DNA of 64,000 nt from Roseicyclus sp. (lineage in GTDB: Bacteria; Pseudomonadota; Alphaproteobacteria; Rhodobacterales; Rhodobacteraceae): contig NZ_JAGYJN010000006.1 in assembly GCF_018402035.1 (NCBI RefSeq), positions 62,001 to 126,000 on the forward strand, given 5' to 3'. The position numbers and the translations under genes were made by a program. Of this stretch, positions 52,110-64,000 are shown in pieces (the stretch's first letter is position 1; each line of letters starts with the position of its first letter). The notes under the pieces were generated by a model. The model ran no database searches. It had not been told where the DNA came from and saw only the letters and a list, made by a program, of their open reading frames with translations.

Positions 52110-53006
52110 TTACAAAACCCGGCGCGATACGCGCGCCCGTAAATAGTCGTCGGCCGACATCCTTGGCTTGCCCTCGGGCTGAAGCGCGGTGATTTCGACC
52201 GCGCCTGTGGCGCAGGCGATCGTCAAACCCTTTAGCACCGTTCCGGGCGCGCCTGTGCCATTGGCCAACTGGCAGCCGATCAGCTTGACCCGCTTGCCCG
52301 CGATCATGGTCCAAGCGCCGGGAAAGGGCGAGAGGCCACGGATCTGGCGGTCAATTTCGATGGCTGGGCGTGTCCAATCGACCTGTGCCTCGGATTTGTC
52401 GATCTTGGCGGCATAGGTGACGCCTTCAGCGGGTTGGGGCTGCGGTGTCAGCCTATCCAGATCGGCCAGCGCGGTGACAATCGCCTCGGCACCCAAGCAC
52501 GCCAGCCGGTCGTGCAACGCGCTGGCGGTTTCCGTCTCGCCGATGGGAATAGCGCGGCAGAGCAGCACGGGGCCGGTATCTAATCCGGCCTCCATTTGCA
52601 TGATGCAGACGCCGGTTTCCGCGTCACCGGCCATAATCGCGCGCTGGATGGGCGCGGCCCCGCGCCAGCGCGGCAAAAGGCTTGCATGGATGTTGAGACA
52701 GCCCCGGCGCGGCGCATCGAGCACCGCTTGCGGCAAGATCAGCCCATAGGCCACGACGACGGCCACATCGGCATCGAGTGCTGCGAATTCCGCCTGCACC
52801 TCGGGGGTGCGGAGGCTTTTCGGATGCCGAACCGGCACCCTCATCGCCGCAGCGCGGGTATGAACGGGTGTGGGGCGTTCGGCCTGACCGCGGCCAGCCG
52901 GGCGGGGTGGCTGGGTATAGACGCAAGCGATCTCATGGCCCGCTTGCACCAGCGCCTCAAGCACCGTGACCGAAAACGCCGGCGTGCCCATAAAAACGAT
53001 CCGCAT
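52110..53006 (-). CDS. fmt: methionyl-tRNA formyltransferase
   Basis: 298 aa from the ATG at 53006; a GTG one codon earlier is possible. Formylates initiator Met-t[22 protein letters not shown] is the N-terminal signature; [20 protein letters not shown] holds the active-site His and the SLLP motif; the C-terminal domain starts near [14 protein letters not shown]. One-base overlap with the upstream deformylase-like gene, forming a def-like/fmt operon. Confidence 0.95.
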
Positions 53007-53509
53007 CACCGCGCCCCTTTTCTGGCCCGTTTGAGCAGCATCTCGCGCTTGGTCCGCGAGAGGCGGTCAAAATACATCCGTCCCGCCAGATGGTCGATCT
53101 GGTGCTGCACCGAGGTGGCCCAAAGCCCGGTGAAATCTTGACGGACCCGAAGCCCGTGGTGATCGGTAAAGTCCACGGTCACATTGGCTGGCCGCGTCAC
53201 CGATGCCCAGACACCGGGCAGGTTAGGGCTGGCTTCTTCATGGTCGTTCATCGCCTCGGATGCGGTGATGATCTCGGGGTTGGCCATGCGGATAGCTTGG
53301 CCGCGTGTGTCGCTGGCATCGACCACGGCCAGACGCAGCATCACGCCGATCTGCGGCGCGGCAAGGCCCACGCCCGGCATCGCCTCCATCGTTTCGATCA
53401 TGTCGTTCCAGATCACGCGGATTTCATCGGTGATCTCGCCCACATCCACCGCCGGCGTCCTAAGCCGCTTGTCGGGCCACATCACGAAGGGGCGCTTTGT
53501 GCCGCTCAC
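53006..53509 (-). CDS. peptide deformylase paralogue lacking catalytic residues
   Basis: 167 aa with the deformylase fold. Motif 1 is intact (GVGLAAPQ, residues 47-54). Motif 2, EGCLS in active enzymes, is replaced by EASPNLP (92-98), so the metal-binding Cys is missing. Motif 3, HEXXH, reads H136-Q137-I-D-H140, so the catalytic Glu is Gln. It is probably not a standard deformylase. Such degenerate copies beside def and fmt are found in related bacteria. It overlaps the def gene upstream by four bases and fmt by one. Confidence 0.88.
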
Positions 53510-54030
53510 GCCTTTTCCCGCGCGCGGTCCTTCTTGAGCTTGACCATCTTGCGGGTGATCAGCTGGCGGCGAAGGGGGGTGAGGTAATCGATAAACATGA
53601 TGCCGTTCAGATGATCGATCTCATGCTGCAGGCAGGTGGCCCAAAGACCATCGAAGGTTTCTTGCTTTTCGGTGCCGTTTGGATCGATCCAGCGCACCGT
53701 CACCTCGGCCGGGCGTTCGACATCGGCATAGATATCGGGGATCGACAGACAGCCTTCCTCGTAAATGCTGCGCGTCGTCGCTTTCGGCGATGATCTCGGG
53801 GTTGAACATGGCCAAGGGGCGCGGCGCGGCCCTTCGGCCTTGACGCAATCCATCACGATCAGCCGTGTGTCGACGCCGATCTGGGGTGCGGCCAGCCCGA
53901 TACCCGGCGCGGCATACATCGTTTCTAACATATCATCGGCAAGCAGGCGCAAATCATCCGACAGGTCGGTGATGGGCGGGGCAAGCTTTTTCAGCCGCGG
54001 GTCGGGATGGATCAGGATCGGGCGCTTCAT
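53506..54030 (-). CDS. def: peptide deformylase, with an internal double frameshift
   Basis: 174 aa as read. All three active-site motifs are intact: GIGLAAPQ, EEGCLSIP and QHEIDH. But the segment between about 53840 and 53780 makes no sense in this frame (APWPCSTPRSSPKATT), whereas the next frame gives the expected APRPLAMFNPEIIAESDD. So one base is missing near the G run around 53835 and one extra (or two missing) near 53780-53785. The net frame is restored. If real, a central strand is scrambled; a pair of consensus errors is more likely. Removes formyl groups from nascent proteins. Confidence 0.85.
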   Translation of the reverse strand: MKRPILIHPDPRLKKLAPPITDLSDDLRLLADDMLETMYAAPGIGLAAPQIGVDTRLIVMDCVKAEGPRRAPWPCSTPRSSPKATTRSIYEEGCLSIPDIYADVERPAEVTVRWIDPNGTEKQETFDGLWATCLQHEIDHLNGIMFIDYLTPLRRQLITRKMVKLKKDRAREKA

Positions 54031-54143
54031 GGGCGTTCATTTAGGTCAAGCGGGCGCGCGCCGCAATAAGCGCGACCATGGGCTTGCACCTGCCGCCTGC
54101 TGGGGTAGCGTGGCTTAGTGCAAATCTGACGGAGCCATTCCCC

Positions 54144-55313
54144 ATGTCCTTTGACGAGATTATCGACCGCCGCGGCACGCATTGCGTGAAATGGGACATG
54201 ATGGAGACGCTCTACGGCGTTAGCCCTGATGAGGGGATCGCCATGTGGGTGGCCGATATGGAGTTTCGCCCCCCGGCTTGCGTGCAAGACGCGCTGCAAG
54301 CGGTGGCCGATCACGGCGTCTATGGCTATTTCGGTGATGATCGCGCCTATCTGGAGGCGATTTGCTGGTGGATGGAACACCGCCACGGCTGGCGCGTCGA
54401 TCCGGCGGCGATTTTCACCACGCATGGCTTGGTCAATGGCACGGCCATGTGCGTCGATGCCTTCACCAAGCCGGGCGATGGAGTTGTGTTGTTCACGCCC
54501 GTCTATCACGCCTTTGCCCGCGTGATCCGCGCGGCGGGGCGCGAGGTGGTGGAATGCGAAATGCCTGTGGTCGATGGGCAATATACCCTCGATTTCGACG
54601 CATGGGATGCGCAGATGAAGGGGCATGAGAGCATGCTGGTGCTTTGCTCGCCCCATAATCCCGGCGGGCGTGTCTGGACGCGAGCAGAGCTTGAGGGGAT
54701 TGCCGCGTTTGCAAAGCGCCATGATCTGATCCTGGTCTCGGACGAGATCCATCATGATCTGATCTTGCCCGGACAGGCGCATATTCCCATGGCGCTGATC
54801 GATGGCATTGCGGAGCGTCTGGTGATGATGACGGCGGCAACCAAGACCTTCAACATTGCGGGCGCGCATGTGGGCAATGTGATCATCCATGATCCCGCGC
54901 TTCGTGCAAAATTCGCGACGCGGATGGCGGCCATGGGCCTGTCGCCGAATTCCTTTGGCCTTTACATGGTCACAGCCGCCTACTCGCCCGAGGGTGCGGC
55001 ATGGGTCGATCAGGTCCGCGCCTATATTGCCGAGAATGCGCGGATTTTTGACGAGGGGATCAATGCAATCCCCGGTCTTCGGTCAATGGCGTTGCAATCG
55101 ACATATCTGGCTTGGGTCGATTTTTCAGGCACGGGCATGAGCCGCGCGGAGTTTACGGCGCGGGTAGAGAAAGGCGCCAAGATCGCGGTCAATTACGGGC
55201 CGAGCTTTGGTTTGGGCGGCGACAGCTATTTGCGCTTCAACATTGCCGCCCCGCGCAGTGTGATCGTGGATGCGGTGGCGCGGATGCAAGCGGCGTTTGG
55301 TGATCTGCAGTAA
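54144..55313 (+). CDS. MalY/PatB-type PLP-dependent aminotransferase / C-S lyase
   Basis: 389 aa from the ATG at 54144 with GGAG upstream. Start MSFDEIIDRRGTHCVKWD and VSPDEGIAMWVADMEF are typical of PatB/MalY. The PLP lysine is in TAATKTFNIAGAHVG, and LVLCSPHNPGGRVWTRAEL is the conserved substrate loop. These enzymes split cystathionine-like C-S bonds or act as aminotransferases. It starts divergently from the def operon. Confidence 0.9.
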   Translation: MSFDEIIDRRGTHCVKWDMMETLYGVSPDEGIAMWVADMEFRPPACVQDALQAVADHGVYGYFGDDRAYLEAICWWMEHRHGWRVDPAAIFTTHGLVNGTAMCVDAFTKPGDGVVLFTPVYHAFARVIRAAGREVVECEMPVVDGQYTLDFDAWDAQMKGHESMLVLCSPHNPGGRVWTRAELEGIAAFAKRHDLILVSDEIHHDLILPGQAHIPMALIDGIAERLVMMTAATKTFNIAGAHVGNVIIHDPALRAKFATRMAAMGLSPNSFGLYMVTAAYSPEGAAWVDQVRAYIAENARIFDEGINAIPGLRSMALQSTYLAWVDFSGTGMSRAEFTARVEKGAKIAVNYGPSFGLGGDSYLRFNIAAPRSVIVDAVARMQAAFGDLQ

Positions 55314-55359
55314 AGCGCGGGTGCGCCTGAGGGCGCATCCGCGCCAGCCCAAATCGGTC

Positions 55360-55378
55360 GCGCTGCACTGCAGCACTT
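55360..55378 (+). promoter_or_regulatory. candidate regulatory motif upstream of mcl1
   Basis: GCGCTGCAC, then TGCA, G and CACTT, nearly the same as the string at 34359-34379 before mcd. It lies 72 bases upstream of the mcl1 start in the gap after the patB-type gene. Suggested role: joint control of ethylmalonyl-CoA pathway genes, inferred only. Confidence 0.4.
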
Positions 55379-55449
55379 GCATGCCGCAACGCAATATCCT
55401 ATCGCATGCGGCGAGATAGACGAAACATCCTTGCGCAAGGAATATTGCC

Positions 55450-56409
55450 ATGAGCTTCCGCCTTCAGCCCCAGCCTGTCGCCCGCCCGAATCGTTGCCAA
55501 TTGTTCGGCCCCGGCTCGCGCACAGCGCTGTTTGAGAAGATGGCGGCCAGTGCGGCGGATGTGATCAACCTCGATCTTGAGGATTCGGTCGCGCCTGACG
55601 ACAAACCCACCGCGCGCGCGAATATCATCCAAGCCATCGGTGACATCGATTGGGGCACCAAGACGCTGAGCGTGCGGATCAACGGGCTGGACACGCCATG
55701 GTGGTATCGCGATGTCGTGGACCTGTTGGAACAGGCGGGTGACCGGCTTGACCAGATCATGATCCCCAAGGTGGGTTGTGCGGCCGATCTTTATGCCGTC
55801 GATGCGCTGGTGACTGCGGTCGAGGCGGCCAAGGGGCGCAGCAAGCGCATCGCCTTCGAGGTAATCATCGAATCGGCCGCAGGCATTGCCCATGTGCACG
55901 AGATCGCCGCCGCCTCGCCGCGCTTGCAGGCGATGAGCCTGGGTGCCGCCGATTTCGCGGCCTCGATGGGGATGCAGACCACCGGCATCGGCGGGACGCA
56001 GGAGAATTATTACATGCTCCATGACGGTGCGCGGCATTATTCCGACCCGTGGCACTGGGCGCAAACCGCCATCGTCGCGGCCTGCCGCACCCATGGTGTG
56101 CTGCCCGTCGATGGGCCATTTGGCGATTTTTCCGATGATGAGGGCTACCGCGCCCAAGCGCGCCGCTCGGCCACGCTGGGCATGGTTGGCAAATGGGCGA
56201 TCCACCCCAAGCAGGTGGCGCTGGCCAACGAGGTTTTCACCCCGTCAGAGGCCGCCGTGACGGAGGCGCGCGAAATTCTCGCCGCGATGGAGGCTGCCAA
56301 GGCATCGGGGCAGGGCGCCACGGTCTATAAGGGGCGGCTGGTTGATATCGCCTCGATCAAACAGGCCGAGGTGATCGTGAAACAGGCCGAGATGATCGCG
56401 GCGGGGTGA
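55450..56409 (+). CDS. mcl1: L-malyl-CoA / beta-methylmalyl-CoA lyase
   Basis: 319 aa, the size of Mcl1 in Rhodobacter. CitE-like TIM barrel: LFGPGSRTALFEKMAAS near the start, INLDLEDSVAPDDKP with the metal-binding acidic residues, AFEVIIESAAGIAHVHEI and AMSLGAADFAASMGM. Cleaves malyl-CoA and methylmalyl-CoA to glyoxylate plus acetyl- or propionyl-CoA, steps of the ethylmalonyl-CoA pathway that also needs the mcd product. The assignment over other CitE-like lyases rests on length and overall pattern. Confidence 0.9.
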   Translation: MSFRLQPQPVARPNRCQLFGPGSRTALFEKMAASAADVINLDLEDSVAPDDKPTARANIIQAIGDIDWGTKTLSVRINGLDTPWWYRDVVDLLEQAGDRLDQIMIPKVGCAADLYAVDALVTAVEAAKGRSKRIAFEVIIESAAGIAHVHEIAAASPRLQAMSLGAADFAASMGMQTTGIGGTQENYYMLHDGARHYSDPWHWAQTAIVAACRTHGVLPVDGPFGDFSDDEGYRAQARRSATLGMVGKWAIHPKQVALANEVFTPSEAAVTEAREILAAMEAAKASGQGATVYKGRLVDIASIKQAEVIVKQAEMIAAG

Positions 56410-56487
56410 TCTGGCGCAGCCATAGTTGCATCTCACGCCTTGGCCCGCCATATACGCGCAAGGCCATTGTGATGGGGTGTAAGGCGC

Positions 56488-57450
56488 ATGACGACCTATC
56501 TCGACTTCGAAAAACCGCTTGCCGAGATCGAAGGCAAGGCCGAGGAGTTGCGCGCGCTGGCCCGCCAGAGCGAAGGCATGGATGTCGAGGCCGAGGCGGC
56601 AGCGCTTGACCGCAAGGCCGCCGATATGCTGCGCGATCTCTACAAATCGCTCTCGCCTTGGCGCAAATGCCAAGTGGCTCGCCACCCCGACCGCCCGCAT
56701 TGCCGCGATTATATCAGCGCGCTGTTTACCGAATACACGCCGCTTGCCGGTGATCGGAATTTTGCTGATGATCACGCGGTGATGGGCGGGCTTGCGCGGT
56801 TTCAAGATCGCCCGGTCGTGGTGATCGGCCATGAAAAGGGCCATGACACCAAAACGCGCATCGAACGTAATTTCGGCATGGCCCGTCCCGAGGGGTATCG
56901 CAAGGCGGTGCGCCTGATGGATATGGCCGACCGCTTCAACCTGCCGGTGATCACGCTGGTCGACACACCCGGTGCCTATCCCGGCAAGGGCGCAGAAGAG
57001 CGCGGCCAATCCGAGGCGATCGCGCGTTCGACCGAGAAATGTCTGCAAATCGGTGTGCCCTTGATCTCCATCATCATCGGTGAGGGTGGATCGGGCGGTG
57101 CTGTCGCCTTTGCCACGGCGGATCGTCTGGCGATGCTGGAGCATGCGATCTATTCGGTGATCAGCCCCGAGGGCTGTGCCTCGATCTTGTGGAAAGACGC
57201 CGACAAAATGCGCGAGGCGGCCGAGGCGCTGCGCTTGACTGCGCAGGATTTGAACAAGCTGGGCGTTTGCGATCAGGTGATCAAGGAACCCTTGGGCGGC
57301 GCGCAGCGTGACAAGGCCGCGACCATCGATGCTGTCGGGGCCGCGATTGCGCAGATGTTGGAGCAATTAAGCGCGATTGATCGCAAGGCGTTGATCGCTG
57401 GGCGGCGGCGCAAATACCTCGATATGGGTTCCAAGGGGCTGGCCGCGTGA
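56488..57450 (+). CDS. accA: acetyl-CoA carboxylase carboxyltransferase subunit alpha
   Basis: 320 aa. [24 protein letters not shown] is the usual helical start; [40 protein letters not shown] and [14 protein letters not shown] are hallmark segments. With AccD (not here) it transfers the carboxyl group from biotin to acetyl-CoA, giving malonyl-CoA. Its TGA overlaps the GTG of the next gene. Confidence 0.96.
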
Positions 57451-58161
57451 TCACCCGCCGCGCGGTTCTTGGGGCGGCTGTGTTTTTCGCCACCAAGCTC
57501 AGCGCAGGGCAGGAGGATCTCGCCATGACACCGGCCAGCGATCTGGATTGGACCTATTTGGCCGATACGGTCATGGGCGGTGTCAGCCAAGGTGGCGCGC
57601 GGATGGAGGCAGGTGTCCTGCGCCTAAGCGGGACAGTCTCGACCGCCAATCGCGGTGGGTTCATTCAAGCCCGTACCGAGATGCCGTCCGGATTGCCCAC
57701 CGATGCCACCGCCCTGCGCTTGCGGGTCAAGGGCAATGGTGAGCGGTATTTCGTGCACCTGCGGACCACCCGCACGCTTTTGCCTTGGCAGTATTACCAA
57801 CAGGGTTTTCGAGACAGGGCCAGAATGGGCCGAGGTGACGCTGCCTTTGGCTGATTTCACGGCCTCGGGGCGGATAATGGCAGGGGCGATCAGGCCCGAG
57901 AGTATCCGCTCTATCGGGATCGTGGCCTATGGGCGCGATCATGTCGCAGATGTGTCTGTTGCGGCGCTGGGCGTCTGTCTGAGGCGCGAGGGTTCTGTTG
58001 CGCGTGTCCCGCGCGGAAGGAAAGGTGCGAGGGGGCTGTCTGCCCCACTCGCGCGCAGACCGCGCGGAAGGAAAGGTGCGAGGGGGCTGTCTGCCCCCTC
58101 GCGCTCCCCCGAGGATATTTATGAAACGAAGAAGCTAAAGCGCCGCGTAGAGGGCGGTTAG
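57447..58161 (+). pseudogene. CIA30-like exported protein, frameshifted
   Basis: GTG start overlapping the accA stop. The first frame (57447-57854) begins with a twin-Arg-like signal TRRAVLGAAVFFATKLSAG, then DWTYLADTVMGGVSQGGARM and GGFIQARTEM, typical of the complex I intermediate-associated protein 30 (CIA30) domain. At the GGG near 57803-57805 the frame changes; the next frame continues with VFETGPEWAEVTLPLADF and SIRSIGIVAYGRD. One extra G would explain it (YYQQ-VFETG). The second frame does not stop but runs through the repeat at 58010-58097 and ends at 58161, inside the end of rlmJ. So its 3' end is also odd. Confidence 0.75.
58010..58097 (+). repeat. direct repeat, 37 bp units with 51-bp period, GC-rich hairpin
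   Basis: Two identical 37-bp copies at 58010-58046 and 58061-58097. Each holds GGGGG...CCCC arms: GCGAGGGG pairs with CCCCTCGC around GCTGTCTG-type loop, most perfectly in the second copy. After it comes CTCCCCCGAGGATATTT. I recall similar GAGGATATTT-containing strings as common intergenic elements in Rhodobacteraceae, so this may be a dispersed repeat with terminator function for the accA/CIA30 transcript. Confidence 0.8.
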
Positions 58162-58911
58162 GCGGGTTGCCTCGTCTTGCAGGCCAAAGGGTGGGTTGAG
58201 CACGAAGATGCCCGATCCGATCATGCCATGGCCGGGGCGGGCGGGGGGGAAGCGGACCTCGTGGCTGAGCGCCTCGGAATAGCTCATGCGCAGGGTTTGG
58301 GCCATCTGTGAGTGGGCTTGGTTGGCCAGCACCGGATACCACAGCATCACCACGCCGACATTCCATTTGCGGTGCAATTTGGCGATAAGGTCGGGGATGC
58401 GGTCGTAATCGGTTTTGACCTCGTAGCTGGGGTCAATCAGCATGACGCCGCGCCGCGGCTCGGGCGGGGTGCGCGAGAGCGCCATGGCGAGGCCGTCTTC
58501 TTGCAGCACTTGGAGATAGCGCTGCGGCATAGCTTGGCGCAGTGCCGCGACCTCGGCGGGGTGGAGTTCGGCTAGCGTCATATTGTCGAAGCCGCGCAGA
58601 AGTGCAGCGGCGATGAGCGGCGAGCCGGGATAAGATGCTGCCCCGTGTTCAGTGGCCACGATGGCACGGGCGCGGGCATAGGGGTGATCGGGGGCGAACC
58701 AATCGGCCACCCGCCCTATGCCTTGGGCGGCCTCGCCGGTTTTGCGCGCCTCAACCCCGTCGAGATGGTAAAGGCCGCGCCCTGCATGGGTTTCGAAATA
58801 GCTCAGCGCCTTATCCTTGCGCGTGAGGTAGTCGAGCGTGCAGGACAGGAGCGCATGCTTATGCACATCAGCCAGATTGCCCGCGTGATAGGCGTGTTGA
58901 TAGGAGAGCAT
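58135..58911 (-). CDS. rlmJ: 23S rRNA (adenine(2030)-N6)-methyltransferase
   Basis: 258 aa. MLSYQHAYHAGNLADVHKHA is the RlmJ start; YFETHAGRGLY is the SAM site and MLIDPSYEVKTDY holds the catalytic DPSY. FVLNPPFG closes the fold. It methylates A2030 of 23S rRNA. It is not frameshifted, unlike several neighbours. It ends 27 bases inside the convergent CIA30-like frame. Confidence 0.93.
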   Translation of the reverse strand: MLSYQHAYHAGNLADVHKHALLSCTLDYLTRKDKALSYFETHAGRGLYHLDGVEARKTGEAAQGIGRVADWFAPDHPYARARAIVATEHGAASYPGSPLIAAALLRGFDNMTLAELHPAEVAALRQAMPQRYLQVLQEDGLAMALSRTPPEPRRGVMLIDPSYEVKTDYDRIPDLIAKLHRKWNVGVVMLWYPVLANQAHSQMAQTLRMSYSEALSHEVRFPPARPGHGMIGSGIFVLNPPFGLQDEATRLTALYAAL

Positions 58912-58914
58912 CGC

Positions 58915-59115
58915 CTAGCACATCCGCTTGGACGCATGGGCGGGATCGATCAGGTCATTGACCCGCGTGTCGACATCATGGCCCGATCTGCGCAACAACG
59001 ATGCGGGCTGCATTTCCGACCAAGGGCCGGTGCACATGAACGCTTTGGCAAGCGACAAGGCGCCAGGGCGATCATCGCGCGCCGCGAGCATGACGATATT
59101 CTCAATGATCCGCAT
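58915..59115 (-). CDS. small protein, unknown
   Basis: 66 aa. MRIIENIVMLAARDDRPGAL then FMCTGPWSEMQPASLLRRSG. Not recognised. It is a reading frame with codon use like real genes here (G or C mostly in third positions), overlaps the plsC end by 14 bases and stops four bases before rlmJ starts, so it fits an operon position. No clear ribosome site. No membrane segment. Confidence 0.45.
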   Translation of the reverse strand: MRIIENIVMLAARDDRPGALSLAKAFMCTGPWSEMQPASLLRRSGHDVDTRVNDLIDPAHASKRMC

Positions 59116-59827
59116 GAAAGCCCGCCTCGGCCATCAGGCGGTTGGATGCGGTTTCGACATCATCTTCGAGTTTGCGCATGAACGCGTCGCGCTGCATGCC
59201 GGGGGCGATCCTTGGGAGGAACTCGACCACGGCCAGACCCGGTTTGCGCAACAGGCTGTGGCGTGGCCAGAAGACGCCGACATTGGCCGCGACCGGCACG
59301 CAGGGCTGGCCCAATTGTTCGTAAAGCGCGCCGGTGCCAACCTTGTAGGGGCGCGGCACGCCGGGGGCACGCGGGTGCCTTGGGGATAGATGATCAACTG
59401 GCCACCCTGACGCTTGCCGGATTTCACATCCGATAGCATCTTCGGCAATCGCTGCGCCGCGCTTGCCGCGATTGACCGGGACGCAGCCGATGCGCAGCCC
59501 GTATTGGCCCACGAAGGGCGCAAAGAGCAATTCGCGCTTCATGATGAACTTGCCGCGCGGCACGGCGTTGTAGATCATCAAGATATCCAGAAAGCTTTGA
59601 TGTTTGGCCGCAATCATCACATCATCGGTGGGTGGTGTGCCGCGCACTTCGCAGCGCAAGCCGGTCATCCAGCCAAGCGTCCAGATCACCCAGCGGCAAT
59701 AGGCATGGCAGGCCGCATGCGCCCCTGCAGCTGAGATGACAGCCCAAGGGAAATAGGCCACAGAAATGATCAGCATGGCGACATACATCTGAATGATGAA
59801 AGCCACGGAGCGCAGCAATTGGATCAT
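59102..59827 (-). CDS. plsC: 1-acyl-sn-glycerol-3-phosphate acyltransferase, with an internal double frameshift
   Basis: 241 codons from the ATG at 59827, which overlaps the ftsX stop. One N-terminal membrane segment (VAFIIQMYVAMLIISVAYF). Motif KHQSFLDILM is HX4D-type and GCVPVNRGKRGAA is the second block. Between about 59455 and 59363 the frame reads nonsense, while the next frame gives MLSDVKSGKRQGGQLIIYPQ and GTRVPP, the conserved third block (YPQGTR). The frame returns at a C run near 59363-59367. So two indels, restored. Without correction the third motif is lost. Makes phosphatidic acid. Confidence 0.78.
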   Translation of the reverse strand: MIQLLRSVAFIIQMYVAMLIISVAYFPWAVISAAGAHAACHAYCRWVIWTLGWMTGLRCEVRGTPPTDDVMIAAKHQSFLDILMIYNAVPRGKFIMKRELLFAPFVGQYGLRIGCVPVNRGKRGAAIAEDAIGCEIRQASGWPVDHLSPRHPRAPGVPRPYKVGTGALYEQLGQPCVPVAANVGVFWPRHSLLRKPGLAVVEFLPRIAPGMQRDAFMRKLEDDVETASNRLMAEAGFHADH

Positions 59828-60712
59828 CTCAATCCCTTCAGGGTGCGGAGGGCCGCGATACGCGTTGCCCAAAAGGCCGTGACCGCGGCCAGTGGGGGGA
59901 TGGTCAGTGGCCAAAGCCACCCTGCGCCTTGAAAGCCAAGGCCAGTGAGAAAGGCCCCTTCTTGTGCCGCGCGCGGCAAGAGCGCAATGGCCAGCATGCC
60001 AAACGCCGCGCCAAGCCCCGCCCCGGTCAAGGCGCGGTGGGTGAACCGCCGCACGAAGGCGCGTGCGATATAACTGTCTTGTGCGCCAACAAGGCGCATT
60101 ACGCGCAAAACCTGCACATTCGAGGCGAGCGCCGCTTGCGCGGCCAAGGTGATCATCGCCGCCGTCGCGCCAAGGATCAAGCTCAAGGATATCCAGCCCA
60201 GCAATCGCAAACGATCAGCGGCGGCAACCAAGGGACGGCGCCATCTGGTGTGATCATCGAGCACAGCGCCGGGGGCTTCGGCGGCGAGGCGCTGGCGCAG
60301 CCCAGCCGCGTCAAAGCCTGCGTCATCCTCGATGATCTCGATCAGGCGCGGCACGGGGAGATCGCCAAGGGGCAGATCAGGGCCGAACCATGGTTCAAGC
60401 AAGGCGCGCTGTTCATCATCTGACAGCGCGCGCGGCGGCGACGCCAGGTGTCTGGCCAAGCGCTGTCAGAACGGCGCGGGTCTGGATCTCGATCTGGTCA
60501 TCGGGGGCCGATAGGCGGATGGTCGCACTTTGCGCCAAGGCGGCTGACCAGCGATCGGCCAGCCGCCCGGCGGCAAGCGACAAGGCCAAGGCAAAGACGG
60601 CCAGAAAGGCCATGGCGGCTGATACCGCCAAGGTCAGGCGCGCGGTCTGGCCTGTGCGCGGTACGATCCGGTCGGCCTGCACATCGCCACGGAGCATTGT
60701 CATGATGTTCAT
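59824..60712 (-). pseudogene. ftsX: cell division protein FtsX, split by a frameshift
   Basis: N-terminal part at 60712-60416 (98 aa): cytoplasmic start, one membrane helix (LAVSAAMAFLAVFALALSLAA) and start of the periplasmic domain, ending LGQTPGVAAARAVR. C-terminal part in the next frame from about 60440 to 59824: ALSDDEQRALLEPWFG, then three helices typical of FtsX and IAALRTLKGLR. The shift is in the GC-rich stretch near 60425-60436; one extra base or two missing. FtsX and FtsE form an ABC-like complex controlling peptidoglycan hydrolases at division. It overlaps ftsE by four bases. Confidence 0.82.
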
Positions 60713-61385
60713 AGGTTCGTCCCCGCAGCGCTGAGCTTGCCATCGGCGATGCGGAGCACGCGGGCTTGCACCTGTGCTTTGGCCGCGCGAATGAGCGCAA
60801 GATCATGGGTCGCGATCACGATGGTTTTGCCCAAGCGGTTCAACTCGCACAGCAAGGTCAACAGTCTGAGCGACATCTCCCAATCGACATTGCCCGTTGG
60901 CTCATCGGCCAAGATCAGCTCTGGGTCCATCATGATCGCGCGGGCCAATGCGGCGCGCTGGCGCTCACCGCCTGATAATTCGGCCGGGCGGGCCGATGCG
61001 CGCGCGCTCAGGCCGACCCAAGCGATCAGTTCGCGCAGATTTGACGCGTTTTTCACCGCGTCGCGGCCCGACACGGTCAATGGCAGGGCAATGTTCTCGG
61101 CGATGGGCAGGTGATCGAGAAACTCGCAATCTTGATTGACCACGCCGATCCTTTGGCGGCTGCGCGCGATCCTGTCACGGTCGAGCGCCGCGGTATCTTG
61201 GCCGAAAACGCTCACGCGGCCTTGTGTGGCGATAAGCTCACCATAGCACAGCTTGAGAAATGTCGTTTTCCTGATCCTGATGGACCCGTCAGGAAATGAA
61301 ATGATCCCGGCGCAAGGCGTAGTGTCATATCCGACAGGATCGGGTCGGCTCCGTAGCCATAGGCGGCATCCTGCATGTCGATCAC
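60709..61385 (-). pseudogene. ftsE: cell division ATP-binding protein FtsE, frameshifted in Walker A
   Basis: GTG at 61385 preceded by AAGGAG. The first frame reads [15 protein letters not shown] and [17 protein letters not shown], then is wrong after the A run at 61266-61269 (TTTT on the plus strand). The next frame continues [45 protein letters not shown] and THD, all FtsE/ABC motifs. One missing A in the run would restore GSGKTT. FtsE is the ATPase of FtsEX. A true loss would kill ATP binding; error seems likelier. Confidence 0.85.
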
Positions 61386-61574
61386 GAAAGCACACTCCTT
61401 GGACCAGCACAACTACCGCGCCCGTCATGCAACGGATGCGCGCAGGTTGCAATCGGCGGGCCACCCATGCCCTTGGAATACAATGGGGGCGCTGCTACAA
61501 GCGAGGGCAATGACAGGCGGCGCGGCGCCCTAATGCGTTGTGCGCCGCGAGAATAGGGTAAGCGGAAACGGTAA

Positions 61575-62401
61575 ATGCGGCTGACCTGTCCGAATTGTGG
61601 CGCCCGGTACGAGGTTGCCGATAGCATGATCCCCCCGAGGGGCGCGATGTGCAATGTTCCAATTGCACCACGACATGGTTCCAACCCGGTCGGCCCAATG
61701 ATGCGCAGCCGAGGGATGAAGACGCGCCACCACCACCCCCGCCGCCGCCACCACCTGCGCAAGACGTCACAGACGCACCCGAAGTCGTCGAATTGCCCGA
61801 CGCGCCCGCGGTGGAGAACCCTGCGACTGCGCCCCAGCCGCCTGATCCGCAAGCCGCACTAACCCGTCAAGAGATTGACCCCGCGATCCGTGAGATCTTG
61901 CGCGAAGAGGCCGCGCGCGAGGCCCGTCTGCGCCAAGCCGAGGCGGATCTTGTGCAAAGCCAATCCGAGATGGCCTTGGTGCCTGATGACGCGGCACAGG
62001 CGACATCGCGCATGCGCCCCGAGCTTGACGCGGCGGTCGATGCCTTTGATGCGCGTGACCCCGCATTGGGCCGTGGCGTTGCAGCGCGCGATCTTTTCCC
62101 CGACATCGAACAGATCAATTCAACACTGCGCGACAGTGCGGACCGTTCTGCGCGTGAGGCAGATGCAAGCGATATCGACACGCTCGACACAATCCCGCGT
62201 CGCCGTCGCGGCCTGCGCATTGGGTTTTTCATTGCCGTTGGCGCTGCGGTGGGGGCGGCCATGCTTTATGCCAATGCCGATGCAATGGCGGTGCAAATAC
62301 CCGCGCTGGCAGAGGCGATCGAGGGCTATGTTCTCACGGTGAATGGCGTGCGTTTTTGGTTGGATGATCTGGTCCAAAGCTTGGCTAACGCCACGCAATA
62401 G
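61575..62401 (+). pseudogene. zinc-ribbon membrane protein, frameshifted
   Basis: Starts MRLTCPNCGARYEVADSMIPP at 61575, a MJ0042-type zinc ribbon with the first Cys pair. At the run of six C (61631-61636) the frame should gain a base: the next frame gives VQCSNCTTTWF, the second Cys pair. It then has a run of about ten Pro, an acidic/Gln-rich coiled region, a basic RRRRGLRIGFF and one membrane helix (IGFFIAVGAAVGAAMLYA). Function unknown; such proteins are common next to ftsE in Rhodobacterales. Divergent from ftsE. Confidence 0.82.
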
Positions 62402-62425: not shown

Positions 62426-64000
62426 TCAGAATTGATCTAGCAAGCGGCGCAGGTAATCGCGTTCGACCTCGGGCCGGTCCTGTTCGGCCGAGCGGCGGCG
62501 CAGTTCATCAAGCAGTTCGCGTGAGCGGCGGAACGCTTCTTGGCGATCTGCCATCGCCTCGTCGCTGCCGAAGCTGCCGGAATTGCCAGCTTGGCGGCCC
62601 AGCGGGTCTTGCAATTGGCGGTTGGGGGCCATGTTGCCCTCGGCTTGGCCTTGGCCGGGGTCTTGCCCTGCCTGCGCTTCGGCCAAGGCGCGGCCCAGTT
62701 CGGTCATGCCTTCGCGCAGTGCCTCGAGTGCTTCGGATTGGCTGTCGAGTGCGCCCGCGATATCGTCGTTCTCGAGCCGCCCCTCGGCCTCTTCCATCGC
62801 GCGGCCCGCCCGGTCGAGTTGGCGCAGCGCCTCATCGCCCGCATCGGTCCCTGCGCCGGGCAGGCGGCCTTGCTGGTCCTCGAGCAGGCGGCGCAGCGCT
62901 TCTTGGCGTTCGGCCAAGCTCATGCCTTCGCCGTTCTCGCCGCCTTCACCCTCACCTTGGGGTTGGGCGTTTTCACCTTGACCCTGGCCCTGCTGCTGTC
63001 CGGGTTGTTGACCTTGCTGCTGGCCCTGTTGCTGGCCTTGCTGCTGGCCTTGTTGCGGGCGGTCGGGGTTCAGCCGATCTTGCAATTCGCGGAATGCATC
63101 ATCAGCGAGGTCTTGCTGATCGCGCAGCGTGTCTTGCAGACCTTCCATCGCTTGCTGGCCGGGGCTGCGAGGGCCATCGCCACCTTCGCCGCCTTGGGTC
63201 ACTTGCATATTCTCAAGCATCTGTTGCAGCGCATCGAGCATCGCTTGCGCCTCGGCCATGCGGCCTTGCTGCATCAGCTCTTCGATCTGGCGCATCATTT
63301 CCTCGAGGTCGGCCATCGACATTTCCATGCGCTCGCCATCTTGATCGGGGCGATCCTCGCCGGGTTCGGCATTCTCGGCGAGTTGCTGCATGTAGTCATC
63401 CATCGCCTCGCGCAGCTCTTGCATCAGTTGGGCAATCTCGGCGTCGCTGGCACCTTGGCGCATCGCCTCGGACAGGCGTTCTTGGGCTTGGCGCAGCCGT
63501 TCCAGCGCGTCATCCAAATCGCCGATCTCAAGGGTCATCGCGGCATTCCACAAGATCTCGGCCACTTGATCGCGGGTCTCGGGTGAAAGCGTATCGACCG
63601 CGCTTTCCAACCGCCGGATCGCGCTGCGGATTTGCAGATAGACACCTTCGTCAAGACCTGCCTCGGGGCTCCATGTCATCGCGCGCAAGAGTTGCGCAGC
63701 GCGGGTGGCATTCTCGCGCGACCACAGAATATCGCGGCGCATCTCGATCAGCGCATTGGCCAAGGGATCGAAGAACCGCCGCCCCGGAAGGCGGGGGATG
63801 TCATAGCTGACAGTGCCGATCTGGCCCGCCGCATCCGTCACGGTCAGCACCAGCGAGACGGGGAGATTGGCGAAAGGATGCTGTGACAGGTCTTCGACCA
63901 AGACCTCGGCAAAATCGGTGCGCTCGCCGCGAAACGGCATGGGCAGATCAAGCACCAACGCCTCGCGCAGCTCGGGGGCGGTGGCGAGGCCAAAGCGGCG
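62426..64000 (-). CDS. TIGR02302/DUF4175-type protein, C-terminal part (runs off the window)
   Basis: The frame is open at the right edge, so the N-terminal part is outside; 524 codons are visible. Long helical region rich in Glu/Gln/Met/Arg (MEMSMADLEEMMRQIEELMQQ), a low-complexity stretch of Gln-Gly repeats (GQQQGQQQGQQ, about 63000-63055) and repeated EALR/QEALRRLLEDQQG segments. It fits the low-complexity alphaproteobacterial family TIGR02302, which has N-terminal membrane helices not seen here. Function unknown. Confidence 0.8.
   Translation of the reverse strand, partial: RRFGLATAPELREALVLDLPMPFRGERTDFAEVLVEDLSQHPFANLPVSLVLTVTDAAGQIGTVSYDIPRLPGRRFFDPLANALIEMRRDILWSRENATRAAQLLRAMTWSPEAGLDEGVYLQIRSAIRRLESAVDTLSPETRDQVAEILWNAAMTLEIGDLDDALERLRQAQERLSEAMRQGASDAEIAQLMQELREAMDDYMQQLAENAEPGEDRPDQDGERMEMSMADLEEMMRQIEELMQQGRMAEAQAMLDALQQMLENMQVTQGGEGGDGPRSPGQQAMEGLQDTLRDQQDLADDAFRELQDRLNPDRPQQGQQQGQQQGQQQGQQPGQQQGQGQGENAQPQGEGEGGENGEGMSLAERQEALRRLLEDQQGRLPGAGTDAGDEALRQLDRAGRAMEEAEGRLENDDIAGALDSQSEALEALREGMTELGRALAEAQAGQDPGQGQAEGNMAPNRQLQDPLGRQAGNSGSFGSDEAMADRQEAFRRSRELLDELRRRSAEQDRPEVERDYLRRLLDQF

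Follow-up and report, generated by a model that had tools for sequence, protein, structure and literature searches.

Clustered small errors have been described in assemblies that draw on long reads. According to the available text of PMC8442456, short-read-first hybrid assemblies often show such clusters. The clusters there fall in non-repeat sequence too, indels outnumber substitutions, homopolymers are favored, and the resulting frameshifts shorten predicted proteins. In PMC9426551, open reading frames (ORFs) fragmented by uncorrected indels are described as common in most long-read MAGs whose short-read coverage was below 10x, and such fragmented ORFs mark unpolished bases. The cluster of frameshifts that we consider here is similar in all of these respects. 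It differs in that the errors described in PMC8442456 were measured with known reads, whereas we infer the read type from the damage itself, and in that the account in PMC9426551 scores whole MAGs, whereas the damage in our assembly is confined to patches.

We propose that this assembly contains local patches of low-accuracy consensus, and that eight frameshifts in six genes, along with three neighboring sites, are errors in the record (probability about 95%). The cluster is almost certainly not a biological feature.

The window is a stretch of 64,000 nucleotides (C56:62001-126000) from an assembly of 3,029,878 bases (3.03 Mb) in 89 contigs, and the contig C56 has 198,814 bases, without N. We compared it to 12 further genomes of the same genus, and the frame test took 14 genomes (its own and 13 relatives). 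All comparisons are between species, none being with a second assembly of the same species. In total we scanned about 399 kb, or an eighth of the assembly, and aligned 110,346 codons. Switches of frame were placed by frame-aware alignment of proteins from the relative G009 to DNA. C56:33.3-179.5 kb and the G009 contig are collinear, with DNA identities of 78-90% across the aligned blocks. Because the open frames of G009 supplied the queries, this genome is left out of the counts of relatives, as are relatives without a match in the compared stretch. At ftsE, the closest relative is G007 (86% DNA identity). At Rfam's gathering threshold, the only match was a small SRP RNA.

Table 1. Genes in the part of the window affected by frameshifts. 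Positions are those of the window; the last column gives relatives without the shift out of those with a match.
Gene	Position	Strand	Profile match	Frameshifts	Unshifted relatives
fmt (methionyl-tRNA formyltransferase)	52110..53009	-	TIGR00460, 272.5 bits, over cut-off	near 52139 (residue 292)	
second, tandem deformylase-like gene (intact)	53006..53509	-	PF01327, 139 bits	none	
def	53506..54030	-	PF01327, 156 bits	near 53772 and 53829, opposite	8/8
PatB-family C-S lyase (intact)	54078..55313	+	TIGR04350, 378 bits, over cut-off	none	
citE/malyl-CoA-lyase-type gene (intact)	55450..56409	+	every NCBIfam match under its cut-off	none	
accA (intact)	56488..57450	+	TIGR00513, 418.5 bits	none	
CIA30-like gene	57447..57975	+	PF08547, 68 bits, first part	near 57805	9/9
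rlmJ (intact)	58135..58911	-	no NCBIfam match	none	
remnant of a gene of about 200 aa (66 aa ORF)	58915..59115	-	both ends recognisable		
plsC-type acyltransferase	59102..59827	-	PF01553, 36.6 bits	near 59370 and 59442, opposite	12/12
ftsX	59824..60712	-	PF02687, 23.5 bits on second part, just below cut-off of 25.5	near 60432, at a GC-dinucleotide run	12/12
ftsE	60709..61385	-	PF00005, 78 bits	near 61268, at a run of four	12/12
zinc-ribbon gene	61575..62401	+	PF13717, 35.5 bits	near 61635, at a C run	12/12 (one partly covered)
TIGR02302-type gene (continues beyond the window)	62426..64000	-	TIGR02302, 290 bits, below cut-off (partial stretch)	about 64975, close to the start codon and just past the window end	

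The original prediction, made from this sequence alone, was that def (twice), a CIA30-like gene (once), plsC (twice), ftsX, ftsE, and a zinc-ribbon gene (once each) switch reading frame. The frame-aware alignment found all eight of these switches, and the five positions that had been given for individual sites match the alignment to within about 7 bases. The relatives also agree: none of the eight shifts is present in any relative with a match, with 8-12 such relatives per gene. The four genes that had been named as intact (patB, mcl1, accA, and rlmJ) align without a shift; mcl1 is the earlier name for the citE/malyl-CoA-lyase-type gene, and the name rlmJ comes from the same source. The DNA alignments at the shift sites agree with the protein alignments. 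In def, the second shift restores the frame, so that the error is limited to about 19 residues that separate motif I from motif II.

Three more sites extend the cluster. One is near the end of fmt and changes its last residues, as seen in a DNA alignment with six relatives. With the fmt protein from this assembly as the query, the shift appears against 6 of 8 relatives; the exceptions are G002, whose full-length alignment showed no shift, and G011, whose alignment ended at residue 291. The second is in the TIGR02302-type gene, and the third, at about 66028 and also just past the window end, is in what we take to be lysA. The fmt site and the start-proximal site in the TIGR02302-type gene are the least certain of the 11. 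The cluster that had been placed within 8 kb is thus real but longer, running from about 52.1 to about 66.0 kb in window coordinates, with 11 sites in about 14 kb.

To quantify the clustering, we used a second scan that prefers frames with changes at third positions. (A first automatic scan, with 47 shifts, was rejected, as many of them were in antisense frames or preceded the true start of a gene.) The second scan gave 48 shifts on C56, and 20 pass a fixed filter: 10 in C56:1-62000, 1 in 62001-114000, 7 in 114001-128100, and 2 beyond. Of the 10 events in C56:62001-198814 that pass this single automatic filter, 7 lie in the patch, which makes up 12% of the length that aligned (P = 4e-5). For the 11 sites kept by hand, the corresponding figure is 1e-10, but these were selected in knowledge of the patch. 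The scan missed plsC itself, and fmt, the zinc-ribbon gene, and the start of the TIGR02302-type gene failed the filter; these four were retained because of the comparison with several relatives. One of the seven passing events in the patch (123388) was dropped, as it is upstream of ftsE. Nine others that passed the filter (17809, 17727, 33125, 47436, 53141, 56811, 109160, 135856, and 161020) were dropped as non-coding, antisense, or upstream, which we judged by inspecting the overlapping ORFs. Candidate 150886 appears to be upstream of the true start, and 148010 and 165752 failed the filter.

All 11 sites are in C56:114001-128100 (15 alignments, 13.3 kb). In C56:62001-114000, 53 gene alignments covering 46.3 kb contain no confirmed shifts, so the earlier statement that none was noticed in 0-53 kb of the window is nearly right, the exception being the fmt site at about 52139. 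Nine candidates were listed in that stretch. Six fall at residues 1-24 of ORFs that were delimited from stop to stop, two are in upstream or antisense frames (101344 and 109160), and one (108440) has low identity and failed the filter. In a reverse scan, with this assembly's own ORFs aligned onto G009, 7 of 164 ORFs were flagged. Four of these mirror shifts in our assembly (def, the CIA30-like gene, lysA via an antisense frame, and gpsA), and the other three are at dropped sites. If gaps relative to G009 are simply counted along C56 at the DNA level, the patch does not stand out; it is visible only in coding frames. The patch is at 114-128 kb of the contig, so we rejected an effect of the contig end. 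We also rejected the idea that G009 has a broken plsC, as its plsC is intact.

Several of the sites had been described as lying at runs of one base, and we found that 6 of the 11 are at a homopolymer of at least 4 or a GC run of at least 6, as are 16% of random window positions (p = 0.004, with a criterion that was fixed after the sites were seen). The other five are off such runs.

Worse damage is found in essential genes elsewhere in the same assembly, and this is the strongest support for poor consensus. In the S10/spc ribosomal protein operon (C12:45.0-49.4 kb), alignment of the G009 proteins showed 28 frameshifts in eight successive genes (rplX 1, rplN 4, rpsQ 4, rpmC 1, rplP 4, rpsC 10, rplV 3, and rpsS 1), along with two in-frame stops. 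The 11 ribosomal protein genes that flank these (eight and three on the two sides) have no shifts. (The gene names are putative assignments from sequence; L14 was confirmed by its Pfam family.) L14 is at one locus, in two pieces, while in G009, G007, G001, and G003 positions 1-122 of 122 are matched. Similarly, the rpoC domain PF04998 is split between two frames of 1027 and 429 aa (C12, about 60.5 kb) but is unbroken in G009 and G007, and rpoC is also at a single locus. Ribosomal protein genes are essential and are normally single in bacteria. The fault is thus in the sequence and not in the organism, and in the living organism the affected genes are most likely intact.

At the DNA level, the patch on C12 is close to what raw reads would look like. 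Across C12:45.0-49.45 kb, there are 138 gaps relative to G009 whose length is not a multiple of three (73 with extra bases and 65 with missing ones). Such gaps number 0 and 1 in the two 1-kb bins that precede the patch, the one after it has 4, and the remaining bins in the 56 kb that aligned on C12 have 0 to 13. Mismatches are at 17-23% in three middle bins, vs. 6-8% in the bins just outside. At 46 kb, the high mismatch may be partly true divergence, because only 572 bases align there.

Errors in this assembly are patchy and unevenly spread. A second, smaller patch at about C56:11.7-17.7 kb affects what we take to be gpsA (one shift) and ahcY (two), as well as a variable gene (one or two). We used two contigs as controls. 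On C1 (71 genes and 24,236 codons), one of 13 candidates passed the filter; it is at residue 13 of its own ORF and therefore start-proximal. On C23 (52 genes and 17,104 codons), one of 7 candidates passed (270924).

How might such patches arise? They would be expected where the consensus was built from long, error-prone reads and accurate coverage was insufficient. Small insertions and deletions, biased towards homopolymers and dinucleotide runs, would then stay uncorrected. The long reads could have gone without polishing in places of thin accurate coverage, or they could have bridged gaps between short reads. The patch on C12, with its resemblance to raw reads, and the milder patch in the window suggest that this sequencing technology and low coverage are probably the cause.

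The patch could instead be a chimera of co-occurring strains, with small indels introduced where a metagenome assembler joined them. Conserved operons are where mixtures of strains would be expected to break assemblies. However, the mismatch to G009 in the window patch is 13.5-19% per 2-kb bin, much as in the rest of C56, and reading frames would mostly be preserved if intact strains were joined in a chimera. We consider a mixture unlikely, and it could be viewed as a variant of assembly error that is compatible with our main explanation.

Real mutations might also be hidden among the errors. The remnant next to plsC, which is inside the patch, lacks about 400 bases from its middle, as compared to G009, and the G009 protein has no match in this stretch of the assembly. 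The break points share a short stretch of similar sequence, and this deletion may be real or may be another assembly fault. We think it quite improbable that the deletion or one or a few of the shifts (the def and plsC pairs being the likeliest) are real.

The deletion could also be taken, along with the clustering of the shifts, as a sign of gene decay, either by a recent burst of inactivating mutations or by relaxed selection along a 14 kb segment. The original prediction considered decay to be less likely than poor consensus, and the selection on these genes bears this out. We computed dN/dS with the codons around the shifts left out. Between our assembly and G007, dN/dS was 0.106 for ftsX, 0.122 for ftsE, and 0.125 for plsC; between G007 and G009, where these genes are intact, it was 0.097, 0.074, and 0.101. 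So dN/dS in these three genes is about 0.1 and close to that of the intact orthologues, without clear relaxation, although constraint on ftsE is somewhat lower (0.122 vs. 0.074). For the zinc-ribbon gene, the values were 0.237 (vs. G007) and 0.259 (G007 vs. G009), and in comparisons with G009, lysA had 0.055 and def 0.095. Also against decay, ftsE has a single full-length DNA match in the genome, and def is the only one of the two deformylase genes that retains the EGC (II) and HE.DH (III) motifs. A very recent burst of mutations would leave dN/dS unchanged, but it would also leave the damage to the ribosomal operon unexplained. Damage of this kind is also found in rpoC and in eight genes for ribosomal proteins, all of them indispensable to a living cell, and this makes decay very unlikely.

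Programmed or tolerated frameshifting, in which the organism recodes at these sites, has a negligible probability: the opposite pairs in def and plsC do restore the frame, but we saw no common motif or shared slippery site by eye, the shifts are in both directions, the relatives are in frame, and rpsC alone would require 10 events.

Poor consensus, which had been proposed as the simplest reading, is thus favored by the intact relatives, the purifying selection, and the enrichment at runs (given the post hoc criterion), besides the damage to essential genes. Within such patches, it is not safe to call genes as absent, lost, or pseudogenes in this assembly. We expect that a plain gene caller would report ftsE, ftsX, lysA, rpoC, and several ribosomal proteins as truncated or missing. 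If frameshifts are found in a cluster, one can quickly check for such a case by testing the assembly's own essential genes.

We also note two further features of the window. The tandem deformylase-like gene (53006-53509, - strand) has EASPN in place of EGC, and so lacks the metal-binding cysteine of motif II, and it has HQIDH in motif III, without the glutamate. This variant recurs in relatives: among 20 loci of this type in the compared sequence (some sharing a genome), 17 have both changes, one is cut before motif III, and two have another motif II along with HQIDH. In the available text of PMC12690207, clustered deformylase genes are reported to be typical of Rhodobacterales.

Downstream of the CIA30-like gene, at 58011-58120 (+ strand), are two GC-rich stretches that resemble each other and lie at a distance of about 50 bases. 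After the second comes CCCCGAGGATATTT, a sequence with a single occurrence in the window.
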